A stretch of DNA of 64,000 nucleotides, taken from the NCBI RefSeq assembly GCF_022867805.1, contig NZ_JALIFO010000006.1:248001-312000 (forward strand), read 5' to 3'. This DNA comes from Cuneatibacter sp. NSJ-177 (GTDB lineage Bacteria; Bacillota; Clostridia; Lachnospirales; Lachnospiraceae). The notes beneath the pieces were generated by a model. That model was not told where the DNA came from. It did no database searches and saw only the letters and a program-made list of their open reading frames with translations. The stretch's first letter is position 1; each line of letters opens with the position of its first letter. Made by a program: the position numbers and the translations under genes. This document shows, one piece after another, positions 22,340 through 38,038 of this stretch.

Positions 22340-23629
22340 CTAAATCGGGATTCGAATCCGGAAGGTGGCTCCGCCGCCCTCCGTGTCCTCCACCCAAATC
22401 TTTCCCCGGTGCAGGCGGACGATCTCCTGGACGATGCAGAGCCCTAGCCCAAAGTGTTCCTTATCCTTGTGGGCGGAGTCAACCCGGTAAAAACGGTCGA
22501 AGATGTGTTCCTTTGCATCGTCGGGGATTCCCGGTCCGTTATCACAGATCTGAAATTCCACAAAGGAACCGGCGCATGCGGCGGCCAGACGGATTTTGCC
22601 GCCTGGGGGCGTGTAAGAGATGGCATTGTCCGTAAGGGCCGAGAGAATCTGAATCATCCGCTCCCGATCGCAGAAGACGGCGGGCAGGGGGTCTTCCGGA
22701 AAATGGATGCCAAAAGCAATGGATTTTTGTTTTGCTGTCTGTTCGAAGTTTTCATAGACGGTGAGAAGCAAAGTCTCCGGTTCCCAGCGGCCCATCTGCA
22801 TGCTCCAGGTCTGATTGTCGGCATTGGCGAGCTGCAGCATATCGTCAATCAAGCGGGACATGCGGCGGCCCTCCGACTCGATGGCGGCCTCATAGCGCTC
22901 CCGGTTCTCTCCGGAGCTCTTTTTTAATGCAGAGAGGCTGGAAAGAATAACGGCCAGGGGAGAGCGCAGTTCATGGGAGGCCGCGGCGATGAATTGAACC
23001 TGCCTTTTTCGGTTTTCCTCCAAAGGCTGTATCTGCCGCTTGGTAAAAAACCAGGCAAAAAGGCCTAAAAACAGCAGGGCGATGAGATCAACGGCGACGA
23101 AGAGCTGACGTTGACTTTGAATCTGGCGGTTTTGCGATTCCTGGGAATAGCAGATTAAAGCGCTGAGCTTCCCGCGGGATTTTGAGAATCGGACCGCCGA
23201 GACATAGTAGCCGGGGCCTTCCGGACTGTCCAGCTCAAATTCCGTGTGCTGGGTCAGTTTTGAAGCGCCGGCCGGGTTTTGGACGTCCAATCCGTATTCA
23301 TCGCGGGCCTTTGTAAGGGCTGCTTCCAGAAGCTGATCCCGGTACTCTGAACGGTGGATGGATTGAAAGAGCAGCGGTTCTCCGTTGTCAAAAAGGTAGA
23401 TATAACAGATTCCATCCTGTTCCATCTGACTCAGCCACTGATGGGAGACCGTGAGCTGTGTCTCCACGGAGCTGAAAATCGTCTGGATACTGCTGAGGAA
23501 AAGGTTGTAATTGCTGTCTTTCATCCCCTTCTCCGAGATTACAAGACAGATGCCGGACATGGTGGCAAGGATCAAACCTGTGATCAGCGTGCAGAAAAAG
23601 GTTAGTTTTTTGTGGAGACGTTTATACAT
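22340..23629 (-). CDS. Sensor histidine kinase (OmpR-partner type)
   Basis: A membrane kinase of 429 residues. A membrane segment at about 8-30 and a second at about 165-185 flank an extracellular sensor region. The HisKA box AASHELRSPLAVIL is near residue 215; the N box DNAISYTPPGG and the G boxes DNGPGIPDDAKEH and FGLGLCIV follow. ATG 23629 has GGAGGT upstream and overlaps the end of the response-regulator gene by 8 bp. It is the probable partner of that regulator. Its divergence from the binding-protein operon suggests that it senses the exported or imported substrate of that system. Confidence 0.92.
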   Translation of the reverse strand: MYKRLHKKLTFFCTLITGLILATMSGICLVISEKGMKDSNYNLFLSSIQTIFSSVETQLTVSHQWLSQMEQDGICYIYLFDNGEPLLFQSIHRSEYRDQLLEAALTKARDEYGLDVQNPAGASKLTQHTEFELDSPEGPGYYVSAVRFSKSRGKLSALICYSQESQNRQIQSQRQLFVAVDLIALLFLGLFAWFFTKRQIQPLEENRKRQVQFIAAASHELRSPLAVILSSLSALKKSSGENRERYEAAIESEGRRMSRLIDDMLQLANADNQTWSMQMGRWEPETLLLTVYENFEQTAKQKSIAFGIHFPEDPLPAVFCDRERMIQILSALTDNAISYTPPGGKIRLAAACAGSFVEFQICDNGPGIPDDAKEHIFDRFYRVDSAHKDKEHFGLGLCIVQEIVRLHRGKIWVEDTEGGGATFRIRIPI

Positions 23630-24302
23630 CCGCCACCTCCAATCTATAACCGATCCCGCGGACGGTTTTGACTTCAATGGCGCTCTTTACGGATCGCAGC
23701 CGCTTCCGCAGAAAATGGATGTAATTGTCCAAGTTGCCGTCCTCCACCTCTGCGTCGGGTCCCCAGACGCGGGAGAGAAGCACGGCCCTGGGAAGGGTCT
23801 GCCCCGGATTTTTGAGGAAGAATTCCAGGAGGCTGGCTTCCTTTTTGGAGAGGGAGCAGGACGCCTGTCCGCGGGAGAGAAGCAGGCGGACCGGGTCAAA
23901 AGAAATGTCCCCAACGTTTAAGTTTTCGGAAGCTTCAAAATTTCGCGGTCTCCGGCTGATGGAATGGATCCTGGCCAAAAGTTCCGGGAAGGCAAAGGGT
24001 TTTACGATGTAATCGTCGGCGCCGCTTTCCAGGCCAATCACTTTATCGGTCAGTTCTCCCAGGGCGGTCAGGAGGATCACAGGAGTGAAATATCCTTCGG
24101 CCCGGATTTTTTTGAGAAGGGAAATTCCGTCCATGCCCGGCATCATTCGGTCCAGGAGGATCAGATCGTGGGCATTCTGCCGGATCCAGGGAAGAGCATC
24201 TTCGCTGTCGCTGCAGACGTCTACCTGGAATCCTTCTTCTTTTAAGGTAAAGCCTAAGGAATCGCATAAGCGGGGATCATCGTCTACCAATAGAATTCTC
24301 AT
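23622..24302 (-). CDS. OmpR-family response regulator
   Basis: A regulator of 226 residues with a receiver domain (MRILLVDDDPRLCDSLG; phosphorylation site DLILLDRMMPGMDG near residue 51; K in DDYIVKPFAFPELLAR) and a C-terminal winged-helix domain (LSKKEASLLEFFLKNPGQ, TVRGIGYRLEV). ATG 24302 follows AGGAGG. It is encoded with the sensor kinase and opposite an ABC-type gene cluster whose promoter carries a direct repeat of the kind OmpR-type regulators bind. Regulation of that cluster is inferred. Confidence 0.93.
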   Translation of the reverse strand: MRILLVDDDPRLCDSLGFTLKEEGFQVDVCSDSEDALPWIRQNAHDLILLDRMMPGMDGISLLKKIRAEGYFTPVILLTALGELTDKVIGLESGADDYIVKPFAFPELLARIHSISRRPRNFEASENLNVGDISFDPVRLLLSRGQASCSLSKKEASLLEFFLKNPGQTLPRAVLLSRVWGPDAEVEDGNLDNYIHFLRKRLRSVKSAIEVKTVRGIGYRLEVADV

Positions 24303-24337
24303 CACTGCCTCCTGATTCATACGGTCTATTTACGGGG

Positions 24338-24366
24338 ATTCTATTCTTAACAATATATCTCAACAA
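24338..24366 (-). promoter_or_regulatory. Promoter for the two-component system
   Basis: Minus strand: TTGTTG (24361-24366), 17-bp spacer, TAGAAT (24338-24343), about 36 bp ahead of the regulator start codon. Confidence 0.5.
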
Positions 24367-24457
24367 TTGGTTTTTGTAAATGGTAAAATTGGGTTACGAT
24401 TCACAGCCGCAAAATTGAAAATGACCAGGATTGCGCTGCCGCAGAATATTTTTTCTT

Positions 24458-24491
24458 TTTAGAGAAAGTTTAGAGATTGGTGTGTTATAGT
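24458..24491 (+). promoter_or_regulatory. Direct-repeat operator and -10 box of the 24.6-32.2 kb operon
   Basis: TTTAGAGA occurs at 24458-24465 and again at 24469-24476, a period of 11 bp (one helical turn). TATAGT (24486-24491) lies 10 bp further on, and no good -35 is visible. The repeat thus covers the -35 position, as expected for an activator of the OmpR type. The leader to ATG 24589 is about 90 nt. Confidence 0.5.
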
Positions 24492-24588
24492 TTCGTTGAA
24501 CGAAAAGATCCCGCAGGCAACATCAAGGCCAAGCAAGTTTTCTTGACCGGCTGCCTTCGGGCGAATCAATGGATAGGGGGATACGAAC

Positions 24589-26958
24589 ATGAAAGGTTTC
24601 GGAAAAAAAGTGATGGCTCTATTCCTGGGAACTTGTCTGCTCTTTGGAGCAGCCTGTTCCAACGGAGAAGCAGAGCCGGCGGGAAATGGCGGGGGAAACA
24701 CCTCGGCAGCCGGGTCGCCGGGGGGCGCCGGGACATCCGGAAACGCTGGGACCTCCGCGGGGAACGGAGGCGGCGGCCAGGGTATGGGGCGCTTTGTGGA
24801 GACAGAGTATTCTCTCCCGGACGGAGTGGAATACATGATGGATTTGAGGCTGTTGGAGGACGGGACCCTGCGCATGGCTGCGATCGGAACAAATCCTCTG
24901 ATGCTGTATTCATCGAAAGATGAGGGGAAAAGCTGGGAGCCGGTTGAAATATCCATGGAGCAGCTGGGAGTAGATAAAACCATGATCCAGTCTGCCAGGT
25001 GGAGTCCCAGCGGACAGTTGTTCATCATCTATATGAATCAGGATGAGGTGATGGCAGGGAATATGAAAACCTACTGTCTGCTCTTTGACCAGAAGGGAAC
25101 AGGAAAGGAACTGACGATTGACCTTCCGCCGCTTTCCTCCGGGTCAGGAAATTCGAATCGGATCTCCGATGTACACTTTGCGCCGGACGGCGGACTTTAT
25201 ATCGTCGATGTCAACCAAACCATTTACCAGATTGACCTGGAAAGTGGAAAAATTTTAAAAAATTATGCCAATCCAGATACCGTGGTGGAAACTTTTGCTG
25301 TGATCGGAAAGAATCTCCTGGTGAAAACCGAAGACGGGGTGGAGTTTTATGACCTGGAAACCGGTAAGAGCCTGGCGCGTCAGGAAGCCCTAAATGAGTA
25401 TATCAAGGCGTTTGACAGCCGTCATCCTTCGGCGGCGGATGTATCCACCGGTGTTTCCGACTATGTATACACAGCCGGAAAAGACGGCAATGATCTATAT
25501 TTTTGTGATGAGACGGGATTGTACCATTACACGCTGGACGGCAGTGTGGTGGAGCAGGTGATCGACGGGGGATTAAATTCCTTGTCTTCGACCACTCTGA
25601 AGGTGAGAGGACTGATCCGGTCGGGCGAAGAGGGATTTTTGATTTTCGGAACGGAAAATAGCAAGGCGAAGCTGATTGCCTTCAATTTTGACAGTTCGGT
25701 TCCGACCCTGCCCGGTACAGAGCTTACAGTATATGCACTGGAGGACAACACGAGTCTTCGCCAGGCGATTCGGATGTACCAGCATGACAACCCGGACGTC
25801 TATGTCACTCTGGAAATTGGAATGAGCGGGGATGACGGCGTCACGGCGGCGGATGCGATCCGGACTCTTAACACGAATCTGATGGCCGGAAAAGGGCCGG
25901 ATGTGCTGATCTTAGACGGGATGACCATCGGAAACTACGTGGAAAAGGGAATGCTGACAGATCTTAGCGATGTAATCGGGGAAGTCTCGTCGGCGGACGG
26001 CCTATTTGAGAACCTGGTAAATGCTTACCAGTCAGACGGCAAGGTGATGGCGGTTCCGGTGTGTGTGATGCTCCCGATGATTTTGGGGAATGCAGATGGT
26101 CTCGGCAGTGTCACGGATTTGAAAACACTGACAGCTTATGTGGAGTCTCTGCGGCAGAAGAATCCGGATGCCCCTGGGATCTGCGGAACGGAAACGGTGG
26201 ACGGCCTTTTACGGTGGATGTATGGAATTTCCTCAGCAGCTTGGCTGAAGGATGGAAATATCCTGGATGAGGCGGCACTGAATGAATTTTTCGATTGTTT
26301 GAAACGAATCAGTGAGGCGGAAAAAAGTCAAATTCCGGCAGGCAATGAAAGCATCATTACGTCGGGGGGCGGCAACCTCTACCTGTCCTACAATATGGAC
26401 CTTTTCTCTTACCTTGGCGGAGATTCGCTGATTTGCGCAGGGCAAATGGATTCTTTCCAGGTCTTTGCGGTATTGGAAACCTTCCGAAGCCAGGGGGACG
26501 CTTACCAATCGCTGAATGGCCAGACCGCGGGTGTGTTCCAGCCGATGCTGACCGTCGGAGTCAACGCCAAAGGAGATCAGAGCGAGACTGCAAAAGGGTT
26601 TGTCAAATATCTGCTCGGCAAGGACTTCCAGTCCAACGAGAATCTGGGCGGCCTGCCGGTGAACCGGGCGGCATTTGACGCTGGGAAGAAAAATCCGTTC
26701 CCATCAGATCTGACGCCTTCTATGAGTTCCATGGGTGCAAGCGGGGAGCTGAAGGATTTGGAGATTCAGTGGCCGTCGGAGAACAGCTTTGCCGAGCTCC
26801 AAAAGCGAATGGAATCCGTAAACATTCCTGCCGATTCGAACCAGGTGATCCGCGAGGCTGTGGAGGCGGAAGCTAAAAATCTATTGGAAGGCGGAAGCGT
26901 AGCGGATGCCGTTCAGAATGTGATAAAGAAAGTAAATCTCTATCTGTCGGAACAGTAA
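24589..26958 (+). CDS. Lipoprotein: beta-propeller-like region fused to an ABC solute-binding domain
   Basis: A cell-surface lipoprotein of 789 residues. The signal peptide ends in a lipobox (FGAAC, Cys near 23), followed by a Gly/Ala-rich linker to about residue 65. Residues about 70-375 look like a beta-propeller: an Asp-box-like SKDEGKSW, then repeated DLESGK, DLETGK and FAPDGGLYIVD blades. From about 378 (ELTVYALEDN) the sequence is a CUT1-type sugar-binding protein, with GPDVLILDG and a later TVGVNAKGDQSETAKGF motif. The operon continues with two permeases. The fusion is unusual; the ligand is unknown but could be a carbohydrate or a cell-wall glycan. Confidence 0.82.
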   Translation: MKGFGKKVMALFLGTCLLFGAACSNGEAEPAGNGGGNTSAAGSPGGAGTSGNAGTSAGNGGGGQGMGRFVETEYSLPDGVEYMMDLRLLEDGTLRMAAIGTNPLMLYSSKDEGKSWEPVEISMEQLGVDKTMIQSARWSPSGQLFIIYMNQDEVMAGNMKTYCLLFDQKGTGKELTIDLPPLSSGSGNSNRISDVHFAPDGGLYIVDVNQTIYQIDLESGKILKNYANPDTVVETFAVIGKNLLVKTEDGVEFYDLETGKSLARQEALNEYIKAFDSRHPSAADVSTGVSDYVYTAGKDGNDLYFCDETGLYHYTLDGSVVEQVIDGGLNSLSSTTLKVRGLIRSGEEGFLIFGTENSKAKLIAFNFDSSVPTLPGTELTVYALEDNTSLRQAIRMYQHDNPDVYVTLEIGMSGDDGVTAADAIRTLNTNLMAGKGPDVLILDGMTIGNYVEKGMLTDLSDVIGEVSSADGLFENLVNAYQSDGKVMAVPVCVMLPMILGNADGLGSVTDLKTLTAYVESLRQKNPDAPGICGTETVDGLLRWMYGISSAAWLKDGNILDEAALNEFFDCLKRISEAEKSQIPAGNESIITSGGGNLYLSYNMDLFSYLGGDSLICAGQMDSFQVFAVLETFRSQGDAYQSLNGQTAGVFQPMLTVGVNAKGDQSETAKGFVKYLLGKDFQSNENLGGLPVNRAAFDAGKKNPFPSDLTPSMSSMGASGELKDLEIQWPSENSFAELQKRMESVNIPADSNQVIREAVEAEAKNLLEGGSVADAVQNVIKKVNLYLSEQ

Positions 26959-26996
26959 AGAAAATCGGAACCGCAAAAGGAAAAGGATGAACTGCG

Positions 26997-27851
26997 ATGA
27001 AAAGATTCAGGATACGGCGGGGGCAGAGAGCGGGAATTCTCTTTGTCCTCCCCAGCCTGCTGGGTGTGGCCTGGTTTCTCCTGCTGCCGTTTCTCGATGT
27101 GGTGGCCCGTTCCTTCCTGGGAGCGGTAAACGGAGAGTGGGTTGGAATCTCAAATTATCAAACCATTTTCTCCAACGAGGCATTCCGGCTGGCAGCGGGA
27201 AATACGGTAAAATTCGCTGTGGTCTGCATCCCCCTTTTGATCGTCATCTCCCTGCTGATCTCCGTTGGGCTGACTCATTTCGGGCGGAAGTTAGGATTTT
27301 TAAAGTCCGCGTTCCTGCTGCCCATGGCGATTCCGGTGGCGTCGGTGGCGCTGATTTGGCGGCTGCTGTTTCACAGCCAGGGGATCGTCAACGGGCTGAT
27401 GGAGCAGCTGGGAGGAAATCCGGTGGACTGGATGAATTCTCCGGCTGCCTTCTGGGTTCTGGTGCTCACCTATCTGTGGAAAAACGTGGGTTATGATGTG
27501 ATTTTGTGGATGGCGGGCTTGTCCGCCATTCCCTACTCGATCTATGAGGCGGCCGAGGTGGACGGGGCGGGCTCGTGGAAATGCTTTACGAAAATCACTT
27601 TGCCGAACCTGAAACCTACGCTGTATACGATCACGGTTTTGTCTTTCCTGAATTCTTTTAAGGTGTTCCGGGAGGCCTATCTGGTGGGCGGGGCTTACCC
27701 CCATGACAGCATGTATTTGATGCAGCATTTATTCAACAACTGGTACCGGGACTTGTCCATGGATAAAATGGCGGCGGCGGCCGTCGTCGTGGCTGTGGTT
27801 ATCTTTCTGGTGATGCTGTGTTTTCAGCGGATCTGGGCCAGAGAGGATTAG
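26997..27851 (+). CDS. ABC transporter permease, MalF-like (CUT1 family)
   Basis: A membrane protein of 284 residues with about six transmembrane segments. The cytoplasmic loop that contacts the ATPase contains the EAA motif as EAAEVDGAGSWKCFTKITLP near residue 185. It starts 39 bp after the binding-protein gene and four bases before the next permease. An importer role for a sugar-type solute is inferred from the family. No ATPase gene is found nearby, so a shared MsiK-like ATPase elsewhere in the genome would be required. Confidence 0.9.
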   Translation: MKRFRIRRGQRAGILFVLPSLLGVAWFLLLPFLDVVARSFLGAVNGEWVGISNYQTIFSNEAFRLAAGNTVKFAVVCIPLLIVISLLISVGLTHFGRKLGFLKSAFLLPMAIPVASVALIWRLLFHSQGIVNGLMEQLGGNPVDWMNSPAAFWVLVLTYLWKNVGYDVILWMAGLSAIPYSIYEAAEVDGAGSWKCFTKITLPNLKPTLYTITVLSFLNSFKVFREAYLVGGAYPHDSMYLMQHLFNNWYRDLSMDKMAAAAVVVAVVIFLVMLCFQRIWARED

Positions 27852-27854
27852 AGG

Positions 27855-28697
27855 ATGGGGAAAAAAGTGTTGATTGCCGGTGCCTTGACGGCGCTGGGGT
27901 TTGTCATCTGCTATCCGGTGATTTATCTGATTTCCGGAAGCTTTATGGGAAATGGGGAATTGGGGGAGGGCTTATCCCCGATCTTAAAAAACGGCGGTGG
28001 TTTTGTGGCCTGGCATGTGATTCCCCTCTTTCCCACTTTGAAAAACTTTGTGGAGTTATTGCTGGACTCTCCGGAATTCTTCGTAATGTTCTGGAATTCC
28101 GTGAAAATTACTGCGGGAGTTTTGGCGGGACAGCTGATCCTTGGGGCGCCGGCTGCCTGGGGCTTTGCAAAATACCGGTTTCCCGGCAGAAAGCTTTTGT
28201 TTGGCCTGTATGTACTGCTGATGATTTTACCGTTCCAAGTGATGATGCTGTCCCAGTATCTGGTGCTCGATGAGCTTCATCTGCTGAATACCCATCTGGG
28301 AATCATCTTGCCTGCGGTCTTCTCCACATTTCCCGTCTTTATCATGGTCCGATTTTTTGACGGGGTTCCGGATCAGATTCTGGAATCCGCCAAGATCGAC
28401 GGAGCAGGAGCCTTTCAGATTTTTTGGAGCATTGGCCTTCCCCTGGGGGCCGGAGGGATTATCTCCGCTTTGGTCTTAAGTTTTCTGGAATATTGGAATC
28501 TGGTGGAGCAGCCCTTAACCTTTCTCAAAGACCCAGCCCTCTGGCCCCTATCCTTGTACCTGCCGAATATTGACCTGAACGATGCGGGGATTGCGTTTAC
28601 CTCCTCGGTCGTCACCTTGATCCCGGCGGTGCTGGTGTTTTTCTGCGGACAGGAATATCTGGAACAAGGGATCGTGGCTTCGGCAGTAAAAGAATGA
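27855..28697 (+). CDS. ABC transporter permease, MalG-like (CUT1 family)
   Basis: A membrane protein of 280 residues and the second half of the permease pair. Six hydrophobic segments are visible, and the EAA loop reads ESAKIDGAGAFQIFWSIGLP near residue 175. Compared with typical MalG-type proteins the first extracellular loop is normal and no domain is added. It lies 3 bp after the first permease and 12 bp before the adaptor gene. Confidence 0.9.
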   Translation: MGKKVLIAGALTALGFVICYPVIYLISGSFMGNGELGEGLSPILKNGGGFVAWHVIPLFPTLKNFVELLLDSPEFFVMFWNSVKITAGVLAGQLILGAPAAWGFAKYRFPGRKLLFGLYVLLMILPFQVMMLSQYLVLDELHLLNTHLGIILPAVFSTFPVFIMVRFFDGVPDQILESAKIDGAGAFQIFWSIGLPLGAGGIISALVLSFLEYWNLVEQPLTFLKDPALWPLSLYLPNIDLNDAGIAFTSSVVTLIPAVLVFFCGQEYLEQGIVASAVKE

Positions 28698-28709
28698 GGT
28701 GAAAATAAA

Positions 28710-30344
28710 GTGAAACAGATGGAACAGAAAAGCCGGAAACGCTCGCTCCGGGAAAAAAGTGTCCGTTGGCTGGCCGGTTTCTTCCTGGTGATGCTTTTGC
28801 TGACCCTGCTTTCCAGGGCTGCCGATGCGGTTACGGTGCCGGTGGTCCAAACCGGCTATCTGAAAAAGTCCACCATCGACCGCACCGTCACGGCGGAGGG
28901 CCGGATCGTACAAAACCAGGAACGGGCCGTTTCCACTGTGGCGGGGCTGCGGGTCGGATCCGTACCGGTCCGGGAAGGGCAGCCGGTGGCGGCCGGGGAT
29001 GTGCTCTTTGAGCTGGACGCGGAAGATTTGTCGGAGAAAATCCGTCAGGCGGAACAGGAATACCGGAAGCTGGAGCTGGCGTTAAAGGATTTGGAAAGCG
29101 GAAAAGACCTGACGGAGCAGGAGCGGAACAAAGCGAAGCAAAGAGCGGATGAGGACTACGCCAACACTTCGGTGCGCACCGGCAGGGAAGTCGAGGACGC
29201 GGAACGGGCCATGACCAAGGCGAAGGAAGACCTGGAAAACTTTTTGGCCGGGGATTCGGACGCGCCGGCGGAAGACCCTGTTTTGACCGGGCTGGAAAAT
29301 ACCTGCCAGGAGAAACAGGATGCCTTGGATCAGGCGGAGCAAGAGCAGAAAGATCTGGAACAGGAAATCCAGGCCGCCGTAGCTGCCGATCCGCCGCAGG
29401 AGGCGGAAATCCGCCGGAGCTATGAGGCAAAGCTGGCGGAGGCGGCAGAACGGGTCAAAACCTGTGAACAAGAAAAAGAACAGGCCGACAATGCGCTCGA
29501 ATCCTATCTGGCTCAGAAAGACGCTAAGAACGAAGAAGACCGCGGGGCAATGGAAGAGAGTCTGCGGGCCGCCTATGAGGAAAAAAAGAAGGCTTATGAA
29601 ACAGCATTGCAAAACCGGAAGGACAGCTTAGAGAACGCGTCCCGGAATGTGGAGGACGCCAATGCCCCGACCAAGGAGGACAGCAGCGGGGAGACGGCCC
29701 GTATGGATCTGGAGAACAAGAAACGGGAACTGGATCAGCTGAAAGCCCTCGAAGAGCAGGCGGGGAAGATCGTTTCCCCTGCGGATGGCCTGATATCGAA
29801 GGTGAATGTGACAACTGGAGATTTTACCGGGGAGGGGACCGCGGTCTTGATGGCGGATCTGACCGAGGGAGGCAGGTTCCAGGCCGCCATCTCCAAAGCG
29901 CAGGAAAAATATCTGTCCCGAGGGGATACCATCAGCCTGAAACAAAATGGGGCGGAAGCCCTGGAACTGCCCATTGATACGATTCAGCAGGATACGGAGA
30001 ACCCCAATTCCTATGTGGTGACCGTGCAGGTGCCGGCCGGTACGCTGGAAATCGGGACGGTTGCCGTGATGACCGCAGTGCGGCAGTCGGAGACCTACAC
30101 CGCCTGTGTTCCTTTGTCGGCGATTCACCGGGAGGATGGGCAGGACTATGTCCTGGCGATTCAGGAAACAAAGACCGTGCTGGGAACCGAGCTGACAGCG
30201 GAGCGGATCCCGGTGACGATTTTGGATAAAAATGAGAGCTTGGCGGCCCTATCTCCCGGCGCATTGACAGAGGACCAGAAACTGATCACGGGGAGCAACA
30301 AAGAGGTGAACGGGGGTGACCGCGTACGGCTGGAAGATACATGA
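28710..30344 (+). CDS. MacA/HlyD-like periplasmic-adaptor (membrane fusion) protein
   Basis: A protein of 544 residues with one N-terminal membrane segment (about 20-38). It contains a split lipoyl-like domain (first half about 45-100, VSTVAGLRVGSVPVREGQPV; second half near 350, VSPADGLISKVNVTTGD), a very long Glu/Lys/Gln-rich coiled-coil hairpin (about 105-345), and beta-barrel and membrane-proximal regions. In Gram-positives such proteins join MacB-like exporters. It uses GTG 28710, and its stop overlaps the next start. Adaptors are not usual partners of CUT1 importers, which makes this operon odd. Confidence 0.85.
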   Translation: MKQMEQKSRKRSLREKSVRWLAGFFLVMLLLTLLSRAADAVTVPVVQTGYLKKSTIDRTVTAEGRIVQNQERAVSTVAGLRVGSVPVREGQPVAAGDVLFELDAEDLSEKIRQAEQEYRKLELALKDLESGKDLTEQERNKAKQRADEDYANTSVRTGREVEDAERAMTKAKEDLENFLAGDSDAPAEDPVLTGLENTCQEKQDALDQAEQEQKDLEQEIQAAVAADPPQEAEIRRSYEAKLAEAAERVKTCEQEKEQADNALESYLAQKDAKNEEDRGAMEESLRAAYEEKKKAYETALQNRKDSLENASRNVEDANAPTKEDSSGETARMDLENKKRELDQLKALEEQAGKIVSPADGLISKVNVTTGDFTGEGTAVLMADLTEGGRFQAAISKAQEKYLSRGDTISLKQNGAEALELPIDTIQQDTENPNSYVVTVQVPAGTLEIGTVAVMTAVRQSETYTACVPLSAIHREDGQDYVLAIQETKTVLGTELTAERIPVTILDKNESLAALSPGALTEDQKLITGSNKEVNGGDRVRLEDT

Positions 30345-31588
30345 ACAACAAAGTAAGGTATGGAGCCGGTATTCTGCTGGCCCTCCTGGTTCTGTTTTGT
30401 CTGGGGAGGGCATTGTCTTTGAAAGAGGGGCTAAAGCAGGCGGAGGGAGCTGTTCTCGATCTGGGGGATGCGGGCATTGGGATGTTGGCAGCCGCCGAAA
30501 TGCTGGAAAAAAATCAACTGCTGGAGGAGCCGATGGAATTTACGCTCTGGGAACAGCAGGAAGATCAGACAGTGGAAAGCCCGGAATTTTCCCGGAGCGC
30601 TCTGGTCCGCGGGATTGCTCTTTGGGGGGATTCCCGGCTGGTGCTGGGCGGGAACGGATTTTTGGACGCGTCGGATCCGGACGGGTGCCTGCTTGACGGG
30701 GATACCGCGCTTTCGCTGTTTGGAAGCCGGAATATAGTAGGGCAAACCGTCCGGTACGGCGGCAGGGAGCTGCCGGTGCGCGGGATTTTGGACGGTGTCT
30801 CTGACACGATTGTGCTGGAGGCCGTCCAGGAGGAGAAGGCAGACACCGGCCAGGAGAACTTTGCCTTTCATCATGTGACCCTTTCCTACGGCGGGGAGCG
30901 GGGGAAAGAGGTCTTGGCAGAGTTTCGCAATCAGTTTGGCGTGTCCGGAACCGTTTTGCCATTGTCCGGGTATCCAGGCATCGCAAAGGGGATCCATGGG
31001 ATGTTCTTTCTGGTTGTACTTTGTTCGGTCTGTTTCCCTTTGCTCCGTCTGGCGCGGACCAAGGCTTTCCGGGAGGAGCGCTATCTTTGCTTGGCAGCTG
31101 CTTTCGGCATGATTTTCGCATTTTTCTGGATTGTCCGGCCGGATTTCCTTTGGCCGGAGGACTGGATTCCAGGCCGATGGTCGGATTTTTCTTTCTGGGA
31201 GGCGCTGTGGAAAGAACAGACCGGGGTTGCCCAGGAGCTGTTTTTCGGAGATTCCTCCGTGCCCATCTGGGCGCTGAAAAGTCCGCTGCTGCAATGCCTG
31301 TGGTATACGGTCTGCGGGACGGCGGCATATATAGCCGGACGAAGGTTTTGGAAGGTGGAGGGAGAACGAGAATTGTGGATCGGGGCATTTGCTGTGATCG
31401 CAGCAGCGTTTGCCGTGATCTTATGGACGGATTCGCCCGAACGGCGGATCCTGTGGGGACTTCCGTTATATGTTTTGGTTGGCTTGTTTCTCCGTTCGCG
31501 TTTTTGCACGGAACCGGAGGGGACGGACCGGCTGATCGATAAGGAGAATAAAAATGAAGCGGTCGAAGGAATGGTCAAACACGGTTGA
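30341..31588 (+). CDS. Membrane protein with MacB-periplasmic-domain-like region, no ATPase
   Basis: A protein of 415 residues with one N-terminal membrane segment. An extracellular region (about 30-210) resembles the MacB periplasmic core: ...DGCLLDGDTALSLFGSRNIVGQ..., VRGILDGVSDTIVLEAV. About five further membrane segments (220-395) follow. The FtsX-type permease signature and the nucleotide-binding domain of MacB are both missing. It overlaps the adaptor stop by 4 bp, so it likely works with the adaptor. I do not recognise it as a named family; the MacB resemblance is by eye and should be treated as moderate. Confidence 0.65.
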   Translation: MNNKVRYGAGILLALLVLFCLGRALSLKEGLKQAEGAVLDLGDAGIGMLAAAEMLEKNQLLEEPMEFTLWEQQEDQTVESPEFSRSALVRGIALWGDSRLVLGGNGFLDASDPDGCLLDGDTALSLFGSRNIVGQTVRYGGRELPVRGILDGVSDTIVLEAVQEEKADTGQENFAFHHVTLSYGGERGKEVLAEFRNQFGVSGTVLPLSGYPGIAKGIHGMFFLVVLCSVCFPLLRLARTKAFREERYLCLAAAFGMIFAFFWIVRPDFLWPEDWIPGRWSDFSFWEALWKEQTGVAQELFFGDSSVPIWALKSPLLQCLWYTVCGTAAYIAGRRFWKVEGERELWIGAFAVIAAAFAVILWTDSPERRILWGLPLYVLVGLFLRSRFCTEPEGTDRLIDKENKNEAVEGMVKHG

Positions 31589-32237
31589 GTCGGGTTTCCC
31601 ACAGCCGGTAACCGGCGAAATGAAAGGTTTTTCATTGGGACGTATTCTGGGAAGAAACCTGTTCCGGCTGGTCAAACTGAATTTACTTTTTCTTGTTTTT
31701 TGTCTGCCGGTGGTCACAGCCCCGGCAGCCACCGCTGCGATGAGCAGGGTTACGAAATCCATGTGGAAAGAATCCCACTTTTTCTGGTCGGATTATTGGG
31801 AAACGTTCTTAGGCGAGTTTGGGAAAGCGTCTTTGGCCGGAATCCTTCTTTATGGCGGAGGCGGGGCCGCTGCAGTTGGTTTTCTGTTTTACCGGGAGAT
31901 GGCAAAACGGACAGCGCTCCTGCTGGCCCCGGCCTGGATCTGCGCCGCTGTTTTCCTTCTTTTCTTGGTCATGGGCGCTTATGTGTTCCCGATGATTGCC
32001 GCTTTGGATCTTCCGCTGAAGGCTGTGTTAAAAAATGCCTTTCTGCTGGTTTTTCTTCGGTTTCCCCAGAATTTGCTGCTGGCGCTGATCTTGGGGGGGA
32101 TCACGGGCGTCTGCTTTTTATTTTTTCCGGTATCGATTCCTTTCGTAGTCTTGCTTGCCTCCTCCCTGCAAAGCCTGACCGGCGCGGCAATTGTCTGGCC
32201 GGGGATCGAGCAGTATGTGTGCGGTGGTGCTCAGTGA
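31554..32237 (+). CDS. DUF624 family membrane protein (YesL-like)
   Basis: A protein of 227 residues with about five membrane segments and the DUF624 opening pattern, including NLFRLVKLNLLFLVFCLPVV near residue 35 and a run around PAATAAMSRVTKSMWKE. DUF624 genes are often found in sugar ABC operons (such as yesL), where their role is unknown. Here it is the last gene of the cluster and overlaps the previous gene by 35 bp. It ends convergently to the YprB-like gene, 18 bp away, with no clear terminator. Confidence 0.85.
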   Translation: MKRSKEWSNTVESGFPQPVTGEMKGFSLGRILGRNLFRLVKLNLLFLVFCLPVVTAPAATAAMSRVTKSMWKESHFFWSDYWETFLGEFGKASLAGILLYGGGGAAAVGFLFYREMAKRTALLLAPAWICAAVFLLFLVMGAYVFPMIAALDLPLKAVLKNAFLLVFLRFPQNLLLALILGGITGVCFLFFPVSIPFVVLLASSLQSLTGAAIVWPGIEQYVCGGAQ

Positions 32238-33464: not shown

Positions 33465-33563
33465 GTGGGGAAATCGGTGGGCTGGTCCGCATAAACCCCA
33501 GGCTTTTCGCGCATCCTAAGGAAAAAGCAGAGCAACTATCTAAATTTGCGAGGAGGCATAGCG

Positions 33564-34319
33564 ATGGGAAAATCGGAGGACGAGAAAAAAGAGCAGAAGG
33601 ACGAGGAGGTCAAAGAGTACGGCCAAATGACGCTGGAAGACAATGCAAAGGATTATAAGATTCATTTGCTCTCCGTGATCGGTGAGATTGAGGGCCATGA
33701 AAATCTTCCCGGAAACAGTAAAACCACCAAATACGAACATGTGCTGCCGCAGCTGGCGGCTATTGAGGACAGCCGGGAAATTGACGGGCTGCTGATTCTG
33801 ATCAACTCAGTGGGTGGCGATGTGGAGGCTGGTCTTGCCATTGCGGAGATGATTGCTTCATTGAGCAAGCCCACGGTTTCGCTGGTCCTGGGAGGAAGCC
33901 ACTCCATCTGCGTGCCATTGGCTGTGTCCACGGATTACTCTTTTATCGTCAAGACGGGCACCATGCTGATTCATCCGGTGCGGATGAGCGGAATGATCCT
34001 CGGCGTGCCTCAGACTTATGATTATTTTAAAAAGATCCAGGATCGAATCACCGGTTTTATCTCCGGACATTGTGATATCACCCAGGACCGGCTGGAAGAG
34101 CTGATGCTGGAAACCGGAATGCTGACGAAGGATATGGGGACGATTCTGGTCGGCGGGGAGGCCGTGGAGGAGGGCCTGATCAATGAGATCGGCGGAATCC
34201 GCGAGGCATTGGACAAGCTGTATGAGCTGATTGAGACCGACGATAACGCGGGCCAGACGCGGCGGTTCGGTCAGAGAAACCAGGGACAGCAGGAGAACAA
34301 CGGAAATCAGCAGGAGTAG
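33564..34319 (+). CDS. ClpP-like protease TepA family
   Basis: A cytoplasmic serine-protease-like protein of 251 residues. The first 30 residues are highly charged. The ClpP-like fold has GGDVEAGLAIAEMI, the catalytic Ser in LGGSHSICVPLA near residue 115 and a His in MLIHPVRM near 138. The C-terminus is Gln/Asn-rich. B. subtilis TepA (YmfB) has been linked to protein translocation and spore-peptide degradation; I infer only the family. ATG 33564 has GAGGAGG 8 bp upstream, better than the TTG at 33546. Confidence 0.85.
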   Translation: MGKSEDEKKEQKDEEVKEYGQMTLEDNAKDYKIHLLSVIGEIEGHENLPGNSKTTKYEHVLPQLAAIEDSREIDGLLILINSVGGDVEAGLAIAEMIASLSKPTVSLVLGGSHSICVPLAVSTDYSFIVKTGTMLIHPVRMSGMILGVPQTYDYFKKIQDRITGFISGHCDITQDRLEELMLETGMLTKDMGTILVGGEAVEEGLINEIGGIREALDKLYELIETDDNAGQTRRFGQRNQGQQENNGNQQE

Positions 34320-34324
34320 AAGCG

Positions 34325-34349
34325 CAGTGAAAAATAGCTGCGGAGCAAA
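34325..34349 (+). repeat. Diverged third copy of the 17.5-kb repeat
   Basis: The core GAAAAATAGCTGCGGAGCAAA matches the repeat at 17501 and 17605 with a few changes, and the preceding GCGCA also matches the second copy. It begins 6 bp after the tepA stop. Confidence 0.5.
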
Positions 34350-34446
34350 TCGTTCTATCTGTAGATAAACCGGATTCTGCGGATTGGAATGGGAAGACAA
34401 TCTGTAAATACAGAGAGCGGCAAAAGATCATATCGGACTAGCGCAA

Positions 34447-34478
34447 GATCAATGCCCCCGAATTCGGGGGCATTGATC
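34447..34478. terminator. Perfect 32-bp palindrome between convergent genes
   Basis: Arms 34447-34462 and 34463-34478 are exact reverse complements with no spacer. It lies between the ends of the TepA-like (+) and nspC (-) genes. T-runs are weak on both sides, so a bidirectional terminator role is likely but not certain. Confidence 0.5.
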
Positions 34479-34510
34479 TGTTACAACGGGTTCGGCAAGG
34501 AATCAATGCT

Positions 34511-35728
34511 TTAGGATAGTCTTTCTTTAAAATCCTCATATCCAAAGGAGCGGACCAGGCGGCTCCTTCCCACTGCGTCCCGGTATACGAGGGAGGGAAG
34601 GCGCATTCCGTTGAAGGTATTGGTCTTTACCATGGTGTAGAGGGCCATATCCTCAAAGATCACCAGATCTCCCTCTCGAAGAGGGCGGTCGAAGGAATAG
34701 TCTCCGATTACATCCCCGGCCAAACAGGTGGGGCCGGCCAGACGGTAGGTGTAAGCCTTTTCGCCCGGCTCGCCGCCAAACTGCACAGGCGGCCGGTAAG
34801 GCATCTCCAGCACGTCCGGCATGTGGCAGGCGGCGGAGGCGTCGAGAATCGCAATCTCCATCTGATTATGGACAATTTCCAGAACAGTGGCGGCCAGAAA
34901 ACCTGCATTCAAGACGACCGCCTCTCCTGGCTCCAGATAGACTTCGACCCCATAGGCAGATTGAAAATGCCGGATTACTCGAATCAGAGTTTCCCGGTCG
35001 TAGCCAGGCCGGGTGATATGGTGGCCGCCGCCGAAATTTACCCATTTTCTTCCGGCTAGGTACCTGCCAAATTTTTCTTCCACGGCAGCGGCCGTGACGG
35101 CAAGGGCGTCCGAATCCTGCTCGCAGAGCGTGTGGAAGTGAAAGCCGTCGAGAAGGGGCAAAAGTTCTTCCTCAAAGTTTTCCCTGGTGGTGCCGAGGCG
35201 GGAGCCTGGGGCGCAGGGATCGTAGATCGCATGGCCCTCCTGGGTGGAACACTCCGGATTCAGGCGCAGGCCAACGGATTTTCCGGCGGCTTTGGCCCGA
35301 AGTGCAAATTTCCTGACCTGGGCGGGGGAGTTGAACACGAAGTCATCGGCGTACCGGAGCAGCTCTTCGAATTCATCTTCCCGGTAAGCGGGGGAGAAGA
35401 CGTGGGTCTCTTTTCCAAATTCCTCATGACCCAGCCTTGCTTCATGGAGGCCGCTGGCCGTTGTCCCGGCCAGATAGCGGCGGAAAAGCGGGTAGCAGGA
35501 GAACATGGAAAAAGCTTTTTGGGCCAGGAGGATCTTGCAGCCCGACTGATCCGAAACCTGTTTCAAGATTTCCAGATTCCGAATCAGCCGGGATTCGTCC
35601 ACGAGAAAGTAGGGGGTGCGAAACTGTTTCCACTGGGAATCAGTGATTTCAGCGAAGCTACTATCTGTCCCGAAATCGGAGATTTCAGCGAACGCTACGT
35701 CTGGCCCGGAATTTGAACCCGCGCCCAT
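34511..35728 (-). CDS. nspC: Carboxynorspermidine/carboxyspermidine decarboxylase NspC
   Basis: PLP-dependent fold-III decarboxylase of 405 residues that makes spermidine (or norspermidine) from the carboxylated precursor. The PLP lysine lies in ILLAQKAFSMFSCYP; other family features are GLRLNPECSTQEG, HFHTLCEQDSDAL and NFGGGHHITRPGYD. The start (ATG 35728) overlaps the synthase stop as TGATG. The first 24 codons contain a 12-residue tandem repeat (FAEISDFG / FAEITDSQ) not expected in the family. No later start codon precedes the conserved TPYFLVDESRL, so the repeat is probably translated. Confidence 0.9.
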   Translation of the reverse strand: MGAGSNSGPDVAFAEISDFGTDSSFAEITDSQWKQFRTPYFLVDESRLIRNLEILKQVSDQSGCKILLAQKAFSMFSCYPLFRRYLAGTTASGLHEARLGHEEFGKETHVFSPAYREDEFEELLRYADDFVFNSPAQVRKFALRAKAAGKSVGLRLNPECSTQEGHAIYDPCAPGSRLGTTRENFEEELLPLLDGFHFHTLCEQDSDALAVTAAAVEEKFGRYLAGRKWVNFGGGHHITRPGYDRETLIRVIRHFQSAYGVEVYLEPGEAVVLNAGFLAATVLEIVHNQMEIAILDASAACHMPDVLEMPYRPPVQFGGEPGEKAYTYRLAGPTCLAGDVIGDYSFDRPLREGDLVIFEDMALYTMVKTNTFNGMRLPSLVYRDAVGRSRLVRSFGYEDFKERLS

Positions 35729-36930
35729 CAGTCCACCAGCGCCGGGTGATGGCTTTCCTTCCAGGGCAGCCCCCAGGTGTTCAAGGCTTCCATGAAGGGA
35801 TCGGGATCGAACTCCTCCACATTGTGGACGCCGGGTGTATTCCATTTTCCGGTCATTATCATCATGGCTCCGATCATGGCCGGGACGCCGGTGGTGTAGG
35901 CTACGGCCTGGGAGCCGACCTCACGGTAGCATTCCTGATGATCGCAGATATTATATAGGTAGTAATCCTTTTCTTTTCCGTCTTTCACCCCGCGGAAGAT
36001 GCAGCCAATGTTGGTCTTTCCTTTGGTCCGGGGGCCCAGGGTAGAAGGATCCGGCAGCACGGCTTTTAAGAATTGAAGCGGGACGATCTCTTTCCCCTCA
36101 TATGAAATGGGTTCGATGGACGTCATCCCTACGTTTTCCAGGCATTTCAGGTGGGTCAGATAGCTTTGGCCGAAGGTCATAAAGAAGCGGATCCGCCGGA
36201 TTCCCGGAATATTTAACGCCAGGCTTTCCAATTCCTCATGGTGGAGCAGATACATATCTTTTTTTCCGACGCCTTCAAAGTCGTACTCTTTCTTGATCTC
36301 CATGGGTTTGGTTTCAATAAAACGGCCGTCTTCCCAGTAGGAGCCATTGGCAGAGACCTCCCGGATATTGATTTCCGGGTTGAAGTTGGTGGCGAAGGGG
36401 TAGCCGTGATCGCCGCCGTTGCAGTCCAGGATATCGATGGTGTGGATCTCGTCGAATTCATGTTTCAGGGCATAAGCGGAGAAGACGCCGGTGACGCCGG
36501 GGTCAAAGCCGCTGCCCAGCACCGCGGTGATGCCCGCTTTCTCAAAACGCTCCCGGTAGGCCCACTGCCAGCAATATTCAAACTTTGCCGTATCCTCCGG
36601 CTCATAATTGGCGGTGTCCACGTAGTGGGTCTTGGTGGCGAGGCAGGCGTCCATGATGGTAAGGTCCTGATAGGGGAGGGCGAGATTTAAGACCACGTCG
36701 GGCTTTTCGGCTTCTATCAGCGCGATCAGCTGATCCACCTGGTTGGCGTCCACCTGAGCTGTGGTGATCTTTGTCTTGGTGACGGGCTGTAATTTTTCTT
36801 TCAGGGCGTCACATTTGGATTTCGTGCGGCTGGCAATGCAGATTTCTTCAAAGACTTCGCTGTTCTGGCAGCACTTGTGGATGGCGACTGAGGCGACGCC
36901 GCCGCAGCCGATGATCAGGGCTTTTCCCAT
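35728..36930 (-). CDS. Carboxynorspermidine synthase (saccharopine dehydrogenase family)
   Basis: NADPH-dependent enzyme of 400 residues that condenses putrescine or diaminopropane with aspartate semialdehyde. The Rossmann motif ALIIGCGGVASVAIHKC opens the protein; VVLNLALPYQDLTIMDACL and GFDPGVTGVFSAYALKH follow. It sits directly before nspC, giving the alternative spermidine route. ATG 36930 has AAGGAGG upstream; a longer frame from 37074 is rejected because it runs through the GC-rich hairpins. It is separated from speB by 256 bp of repeats. Confidence 0.88.
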   Translation of the reverse strand: MGKALIIGCGGVASVAIHKCCQNSEVFEEICIASRTKSKCDALKEKLQPVTKTKITTAQVDANQVDQLIALIEAEKPDVVLNLALPYQDLTIMDACLATKTHYVDTANYEPEDTAKFEYCWQWAYRERFEKAGITAVLGSGFDPGVTGVFSAYALKHEFDEIHTIDILDCNGGDHGYPFATNFNPEINIREVSANGSYWEDGRFIETKPMEIKKEYDFEGVGKKDMYLLHHEELESLALNIPGIRRIRFFMTFGQSYLTHLKCLENVGMTSIEPISYEGKEIVPLQFLKAVLPDPSTLGPRTKGKTNIGCIFRGVKDGKEKDYYLYNICDHQECYREVGSQAVAYTTGVPAMIGAMMIMTGKWNTPGVHNVEEFDPDPFMEALNTWGLPWKESHHPALVD

Positions 36931-36964
36931 TGGGTGAATCCTCCTTGAGTGTTTTTGGTGGTAT

Positions 36965-37057
36965 GCGAGGGGGGCCCAGCTCGGAGTCTTGATGCCCGCA
37001 GGTCCCCCCTCGCGCTCCCCCTGCCTTGGGCACGCTTTTTTGGGGCTAGTGGGGGAG
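36965..37057 (-). promoter_or_regulatory. Two GC-rich hairpins in the polyamine operon spacer
   Basis: Hairpin one has 10-bp arms (36965-36974 with 37004-37013). Hairpin two has 7-bp arms (37015-37021 with 37051-37057). They lie between the speB end and the synthase ribosome site. They could reduce read-through, stabilise one mRNA part or separate the two operon halves; the sequence alone does not decide. Confidence 0.4.
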
Positions 37058-37060
37058 GGT

Positions 37061-37095
37061 GAGCTAATAAGCAAATAAGCTAATGAGCTAATGAG
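37061..37095. repeat. Four tandem copies of an 8-bp repeat
   Basis: RAGCWAAT occurs four times in a row with no spacer (37061-37092), followed by a partial GAG. It lies in the speB-synthase spacer. Confidence 0.6.
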
Positions 37096-37096
37096 A

Positions 37097-37192
37097 TTTT
37101 TAATACAGGGCTGGTAGTAGTTCCTGCATGATTGTTTGGTTTTTTAGTGCAGGGCTGGTAGTAGTTCCTGTATGATTGTTGGGTTTTTAATG
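37097..37192 (-). repeat. Stuttered 3' end of speB (about 43-bp units)
   Basis: On the minus strand the last codons of speB (REMLLSLH, stop at 37187) are followed by two further copies of a related segment. Read in their own frames these would encode QELLPALH-stop (stop at 37144) and QELLPALY-stop (stop at 37100). The stop-to-stop distances are 43 and 44 bp. The connecting text (AAAACC-AACAATCAT) is also repeated, so this is a tandem duplication of the gene end and its flank. Confidence 0.6.
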
Positions 37193-38038
37193 CAGGGACA
37201 GGAGCATTTCTCGGACGATTTTGCAGGCTGCGGCGGCGGAGATGCCGCTGGGGTCGTAGGGGGGGCTGAGTTCGGTTACGTCGCAGCCGATGATCCGGGC
37301 TTTGGAGCAGACAAGGGTGGCGGCTTTTCGGAGTTCTTCGAAGGAGACGCCGCCTGGCTCCGGTGTTCCGGTTCCTGGGAATACGGAAGGATCCAAAATG
37401 TCGAGATCCAGGGTGAAATAGATTGGTTTTCCGGATAGCTGTGATAATGTCTGTTCTAGACAGGAAAAGTCGTAGAGGACCGTGCTTACGTGTTTCCTTC
37501 CCCAGAGAAATTCCGGGCGGTCTCCGGAGCGGATGCCGAACTGGAAGATTCGCCCGTCCCCGACGAATTCATGGCAGCGCCTGAGGACGCAGGCGTGGGA
37601 GAGGGGCGTTCCGAGATACTCGTCTCTCAGATCAGCGTGGGCGTCGAAGTGGATGACGGCAAGGTCCGGATACCGGCGCGCCGCGGCCCGGAAAGCGCCC
37701 AGGGTCACAAGATGCTCTCCGCCCAGCAGGAAAGGGCGTTTTCCGTCGGACAGGATCTGGTCTGCGCATGCTTCTATTTGATCCAGCGCTTTTTTTGTGT
37801 CGCCCAGACAGAGTTCCAGGTCTCCGATGTCGATCACCTGTGTGGCCTTAAGGTCCCGGTCCTGATAGGGGCTGTAGGTTTCCAGACCGTAGGACTCCCG
37901 GCGGATCACCCCGCTCCCGAAACGGGCGCCGGGGCGGTAGGAGGTGGTGCAGTCAAAGGGCGCGCCGAATAAGACGGTATCGGCTTCCAGGTAGTCCCGG
38001 TCACAGCCCATGAACACTTCTGTATTTTTATTCCACAT
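37187..38038 (-). CDS. speB: Agmatinase (SpeB)
   Basis: Ureohydrolase of 283 residues that splits agmatine to putrescine and urea using two Mn ions. Metal-binding motifs are GGEHLVTLGAF, VIHFDAHADLRDEYLG and LDLDILDPSVFPGTGTPEPGG in two stretches. Placed after the Arg decarboxylase and spermidine synthase genes, agmatine is the likely substrate; arginase or guanidinobutyrase are alternatives within the family. ATG 38038 overlaps the end of speE by 11 bp and has GAGGAG upstream. Confidence 0.9.
   Translation of the reverse strand: MWNKNTEVFMGCDRDYLEADTVLFGAPFDCTTSYRPGARFGSGVIRRESYGLETYSPYQDRDLKATQVIDIGDLELCLGDTKKALDQIEACADQILSDGKRPFLLGGEHLVTLGAFRAAARRYPDLAVIHFDAHADLRDEYLGTPLSHACVLRRCHEFVGDGRIFQFGIRSGDRPEFLWGRKHVSTVLYDFSCLEQTLSQLSGKPIYFTLDLDILDPSVFPGTGTPEPGGVSFEELRKAATLVCSKARIIGCDVTELSPPYDPSGISAAAACKIVREMLLSLH

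Follow-up and report, generated by a model that had tools for sequence, protein, structure and literature searches.

The window, a stretch of 64,000 nucleotides from the genome of Cuneatibacter sp. NSJ-177, contains a compact block of eight genes, all of which were confirmed in the ORF list of the window at the coordinates originally assigned to them. Two genes on the reverse strand encode an OmpR/PhoB-family response regulator (23622–24320), composed of receiver and winged helix domains (Pfam/NCBIfam), and a sensor histidine kinase (22340–23677) with HisKA and HATPase_c domains (Pfam), in which hydropathy indicates two TM segments flanking an extracytoplasmic region of ~140 residues. The TTG start of the kinase at 23677 is probably too early, and the Met at 23629 fits better. 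Six genes on the forward strand diverge from this pair and encode a propeller-solute-binding protein (SBP) fusion, MalF- and MalG-type permeases, a membrane-fusion adaptor, the product of the ORF at 30341, here called P7, and a DUF624 protein. They are separated by 38 bp (SBP-MalF), 3 bp (MalF-MalG) and 12 bp (MalG-adaptor), or overlap by 4 bp (adaptor/P7) and 35 bp (P7/DUF624). The divergent intergenic region carries a predicted regulator box on the forward strand at 24458–24475 (TTTAGAGAAAGTTTAGAG), a direct repeat with an 11-bp period of the form TTTAGAG-N4-TTTAGAG, followed on the same strand by a predicted -10 hexamer, TATAGT (24486–24491), with TG before it.

The first gene of the forward run (24589–26958) encodes a lipoprotein in which a propeller (approximately residues 66–372) precedes a CUT1-type solute-binding domain (residues 376–789). 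The indications are SBP_bac_8/SBP_bac_1 matches, similarity in profile searches to WD40/PkwA propellers and to CbpC, and an AlphaFold model (pLDDT 86) with a strand-rich N-terminal propeller and a sugar-type SBP domain. In the domain search the N-terminal half was weakly propeller-like. The SBP domain is closest to CbpC (7x0o; Z 27.2, 375 residues aligned, residues 374–788), a structure match that identifies the carbohydrate-binding fold characteristic of CUT1 systems, and Cys23 and the Asp-box are conserved. Because this domain belongs to the sugar-binding cluster, the ligand is probably a carbohydrate, which is the weakest step of the interpretation developed below. Tandem paralogous propeller-SBPs occur within one operon at several loci (L093, L102, L106, L107 and L116).

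The MalF-type permease (26997–27851, forward strand; Pfam BPD_transp_1, 6e-17) and the MalG-type permease (27855–28697, forward strand; BPD_transp_1, 3.5e-14) form the pair of permeases typical of a CUT1 importer, with the EAA coupling loops EAAEVDGAGSWKCFTKITLP and ESAKIDGAGAFQIFWSIGLP, respectively. The loops of both proteins are kept in 47 of 47 aligned copies, and the two permeases appear, from their sequences, to retain the interface with an ATPase. As predicted from the window, the block contains no ATPase gene according to the ORF list and the domain search, and the ATPase is most readily placed elsewhere: the genome holds one OB_MalK ATPase gene, unlinked to the window, against 77 BPD_transp_1 matches, and in three relatives (L035, L071 and L135) an OB_MalK ATPase gene lies within the cassette itself. 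Because multitask ATPases common to several type I importers are established (PMC7658222), the lack of an ATPase gene in the block is ordinary for importers of this kind.

The adaptor (28710–30344, forward strand) is of the MacA/HlyD type by Pfam, NCBIfam and profile matches, and its sequence contains an N-terminal TM segment, a split lipoyl domain, a hairpin insert and a beta-barrel, as in membrane fusion proteins. Here the two lipoyl halves are separated by ~250 residues; the insert ranges from 128 to 444 residues across relatives, which would allow varied reach if it forms a coiled-coil hairpin.

P7 (30341–31588, forward strand) has a sub-threshold Pfam match to MacB_PCD (E 0.001, residues 109–151) as its only Pfam match. 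Support for this weak call comes from the extracellular domain of YknZ (PDB 5f9q), which P7 matches in a profile search at E 8.4e-7, and from an AlphaFold model (pLDDT 91) that matches MacB (5gko; Z 12.8 over 291 residues), as well as SpMacB (5xu1) and the YknZ domain (5f9q). Alignment of 52 relatives gives a topology of TM1, a MacB-type periplasmic region, TM2-TM3, an extracellular loop and TM4, after which some relatives have two further helices that are absent in others. The extracellular loop contains the motif IPxxWSDFxFW, the core of which is invariant among the 52 relatives (WSDF is encoded at 31178–31189). Thus, the periplasmic core fold and the TM1/TM2 stalk of MacB-type proteins are present in P7. 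The major coupling helix of MacB sits between TM2 and TM3 (PMC5985334). In P7 the centres of these two segments are ~27 residues apart, the coupling motif was found in 0 of the 52 relatives, and no FtsX domain is matched by Pfam. A cognate NBD, fused or adjacent, was likewise not found in the block, nor was a MacB-type ATPase in the cassettes of annotated relatives. P7 therefore keeps the platform for the adaptor, which is periplasmic in MacB, but, given the missing FtsX domain, the short TM2-TM3 spacing and the missing motif, very probably not the contact with an ATPase. True MacB proteins from the same genome (L172) and from a related genome (L171) have both the FtsX domain and the sequence ERTREIGIRKA. 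The former belongs, in contrast to P7, to a canonical MacAB-type locus (L172:6350-12327; contig 1, ~25.3–31.3 kb) comprising an adaptor, an ABC ATPase, a MacB with FtsX and its own two-component system.

The possibility that P7 is a normal MacB permease served by a distant ATPase was rejected, as FtsX and the coupling motif are missing. The original prediction drew attention to a paradox, namely that CUT1 importers and MacA-type adaptors normally work in opposite transport directions. The paradox is weakened, because P7 has lost the features that make MacB an ATPase-driven permease. The usual direction of the adaptor family stands, MacA-type adaptors normally serving efflux or secretion (PMC5985334), and would suit an exporter in which MalF/MalG or P7 drives a substrate outward through the adaptor. 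This is nevertheless very improbable, since the permeases are of the type I importer kind with a dedicated SBP, P7 is devoid of FtsX, coupling motif and linked NBD, and the ATPases found within cassettes are MalK-type.

The arrangement is widespread among relatives. With P7 alone as the query, relatives were found in 42 of 299 genomes of the family, 38 genomes being recovered at E 1e-20 or better in a profile search; outside the family the distribution is sparse, with a P7 match in 4 of 391 genomes of the class, the present genome included. In 40 loci from family genomes, inspected with 20-kb flanks, the order SBP-MalF-MalG-adaptor-P7 is found nearly everywhere with the regulator and kinase adjoining, usually divergent as in the window. 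In a scan of named Clostridia genomes, the best 80 of 222 P7 relatives were kept as loci, and 65 of these had enough flanking sequence to be counted: the adaptor lies beside P7 in all 65, MalF and MalG in 63 each, the propeller-SBP in 61, the OmpR regulator in 52 and the kinase in 51. The carriers among these best 80 include Robinsoniella, Lactonifactor, Blautia, Coprococcus catus, Anaerotruncus colihominis and Clostridium celatum. The 4-bp overlap of the adaptor and P7 genes is common among relatives. Because the arrangement recurs in dozens of species, it is not a product of chance. The gene-neighbourhood search proposed with the original prediction places P7 and its adaptor almost exclusively beside SBP and permease genes, so that the prediction of one system withstood this test, and the comparison of sequences and gene order indicates that SBP-MalF-MalG-adaptor-P7 is a conserved unit. 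Two loci (L136 and L142) carry SBP-adaptor-P7 without MalF/MalG; dispensability of the permeases was considered from these copies and rejected, as both genomes also have a complete copy. Several Clostridium loci (L074, L075, L077, L080, L084, L089 and L092) have no typical divergent regulator and kinase, and in L074 at least, an undecaprenyl-phosphate translocase-like gene lies directly upstream.

The importer and the adaptor-P7 pair could in principle be an ordinary CUT1 importer and a separate device that are placed under common control and never meet physically, each half having known relatives that work alone. Several observations make such a pairing of two independent functions improbable. 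The linkage is near-absolute in divergent species, with the tight spacing conserved, and the divergences of SBP, MalF and adaptor are correlated (Spearman 0.75–0.80), although tree-like correlations of this kind are weak evidence because species history is common to all genes. Furthermore, eight loci (L176–L183) have SBP-MalF-MalG-adaptor without a recognisable P7, so that the adaptor can accompany the importer in the absence of P7. A sister class of loci, class B (L155–L171, L173 and L174; present in 28 of 299 genomes), repeats the pairing: the order SBP-MalF-MalG-adaptor is followed by a different MacB_PCD protein, which has a YPYWENxAR motif, then apparently a single TM segment, and no FtsX domain, and whose profile aligns with P7 across the periplasmic region with 98.9% probability. 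L155:3891-11020 is an example of this class, and two SBPs flank some of the copies.

The box supplies independent evidence on the same point. Of 52 divergent intergenic regions, 30 contain an exact direct repeat of 7 bases with an 11-bp period, against ~2 expected, whereas repeats with other periods in these regions are close to chance. When one mismatch was allowed, the box occurred at 98 sites in 3.0 Mb of loci (0–6 for shuffled control boxes), 95 of them lying upstream of one of the system's genes at a distance of no more than 450 bp. The consensus of the 91 distinct sites is TTTAGAGAtanTTTAGAGAtTnntnTGnTATncT. An extended -10 (TGnTATncT) stands at a fixed distance from the box in these 91 sites, and the repeats therefore overlap the -35 position, which may reflect an arrangement as in class II activation. 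Where the operon is split (L057, L086, L095, L129, L132 and L149), the box also precedes the separate MalF-MalG-adaptor-P7 operon, which provides independent evidence of joint action by the halves. The box was not found near class B loci. Receiver and winged helix domains together with a direct-repeat box of 11-bp period are the features of an OmpR/PhoB two-component system, and the predicted box ties the conserved unit to its own such system. The view that the importer and the MacA/MacB-like parts form one system, already taken in the original prediction, is thus upheld by the conserved gene order and by a box that is common to the halves even in split operons.

The main rival explanation is a device for sensing, or protection against, envelope-active compounds, comparable to Bce-type or YknXYZ systems, in which the SBP, permeases, adaptor and P7 together act as a membrane co-sensor or remover that feeds a dedicated kinase, with import of solutes reduced to a secondary role or lost. 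In favour of this reading, the two-component system is dedicated, and the intergenic box matches in the genome are limited to the window locus and a paralogous locus on contig 4, whose adaptor and P7 are 41% and 29% identical to those of the window. A third match (C4:190782) lies inside a coding sequence and was judged a chance occurrence. Adaptors and MacB-type domains are components of efflux and defence systems, and no catabolic genes are enriched among the 87 proteins flanking the loci, so that a nutrient role is unsupported by context. In addition, three loci (L184–L186) are reduced to a propeller-SBP with a regulator and kinase of the same type, with no permeases, adaptor or P7; these are possibly SBP-dependent sensors and are unexplained by a pure importer model. 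However, P7 very probably lacks the contact with an ATPase on which pumps of this kind rely, while MalF/MalG retain theirs, and the SBP domain is a binder of the sugar type. Bce-type kinases are not known to carry an extracytoplasmic domain, whereas the kinase of this locus has one. A sensing or protection device is accordingly considered rather unlikely.

The best explanation, to which a probability of about 0.55 is assigned, is a CUT1 importer under two-component control that uses a shared MalK-type ATPase and carries an adaptor-P7 scaffold at the cell surface. MalF and MalG, together with a shared MsmX/MalK-type ATPase, would power inward transport. The adaptor would oligomerise on the platform of P7, as MacA does on MacB, and may stand in the wall zone as a passive stalk or funnel, where it would gather the ligand, or else the propeller-SBP itself, or hold it in position for the importer. 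The kinase would sense the ligand or the state of the transporter and raise expression of the same genes. We infer the scaffold role, whether as a conduit, in reaching through the wall or in docking of the SBP, and likewise the identity of the ligand. A more specific form is a wall-spanning ABC importer of Gram-positive bacteria, in which a MacA-type tube on an ATPase-less MacB-fold base feeds the propeller-SBP and the CUT1 permease; it is put forward tentatively, as a doubtful but possible extension. If true, tripartite efflux would have an equivalent that works in uptake, and at least two lineages (the WSDF and YPYWEN types) would possess it.

Each part of the system belongs to a known family. 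In common with CUT1 (type I) importers that share MsmX/MalK, there is an SBP of the sugar cluster, a pair of MalF/MalG permeases with EAA loops and an ATPase encoded elsewhere (PMC7658222), but the SBP here has an N-terminal beta-propeller and the operon also encodes a membrane-fusion adaptor and P7. The adaptor and MacB-fold membrane protein recall MacAB, YknXYZ and SpMacAB (type VII), from which the system differs in having no NBD, FtsX domain or coupling motif, a CUT1 importer taking the place of the ATPase. It resembles BceAB-RS in that a transporter is regulated by a dedicated OmpR-type system, but the 10-TM BceB-type permease and the BceA ATPase are missing here and the kinase does have an extracytoplasmic sensor region. 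The alginate importer AlgM1M2SS and the Mce/Mla systems are ABC importers of polymers or lipids with large extracytoplasmic assemblies. They provide a precedent for an extracytoplasmic conduit on an ABC importer, although they are not known to have a MacA-type adaptor or MacB-fold protein and their conduit proteins are unrelated. An earlier description of the combination of importer, adaptor and P7 was not found in the open-licence literature, and the combination is provisionally regarded as new. Efflux-type adaptors and sugar importers have so far been treated as separate worlds; a conserved unit combining the two with a MacB-fold protein devoid of ATPase contact would mean that the architecture of MacA/MacB can serve anew, as a scaffold in uptake or sensing. 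Carriers are numerous among gut and environmental Clostridia (Blautia, Robinsoniella, Anaerotruncus, Coprococcus and Clostridium), in which annotations probably misread the system, because they are likely to list its proteins as efflux adaptors and sugar permeases. The regulator box offers a direct handle on the inducer.

The last gene of the block (31554–32237, forward strand) encodes a DUF624 membrane protein (Pfam 3.9e-10) that passes the general Pfam cut-off for DUF624 and is a distant match to the MusI family (56.7 bits, under the NCBIfam cut-off of 160). It had been counted as part of the system, which is not borne out: among the loci of relatives no conserved gene was found 3′ of P7, and DUF624 was therefore rejected as a core part and is taken as a local addition. 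Farther downstream, at 33546–38038 of the window, inspection by eye suggests a TepA/ClpP-like protease followed by a polyamine cluster of carboxynorspermidine decarboxylase-, saccharopine dehydrogenase- and agmatinase-like genes.
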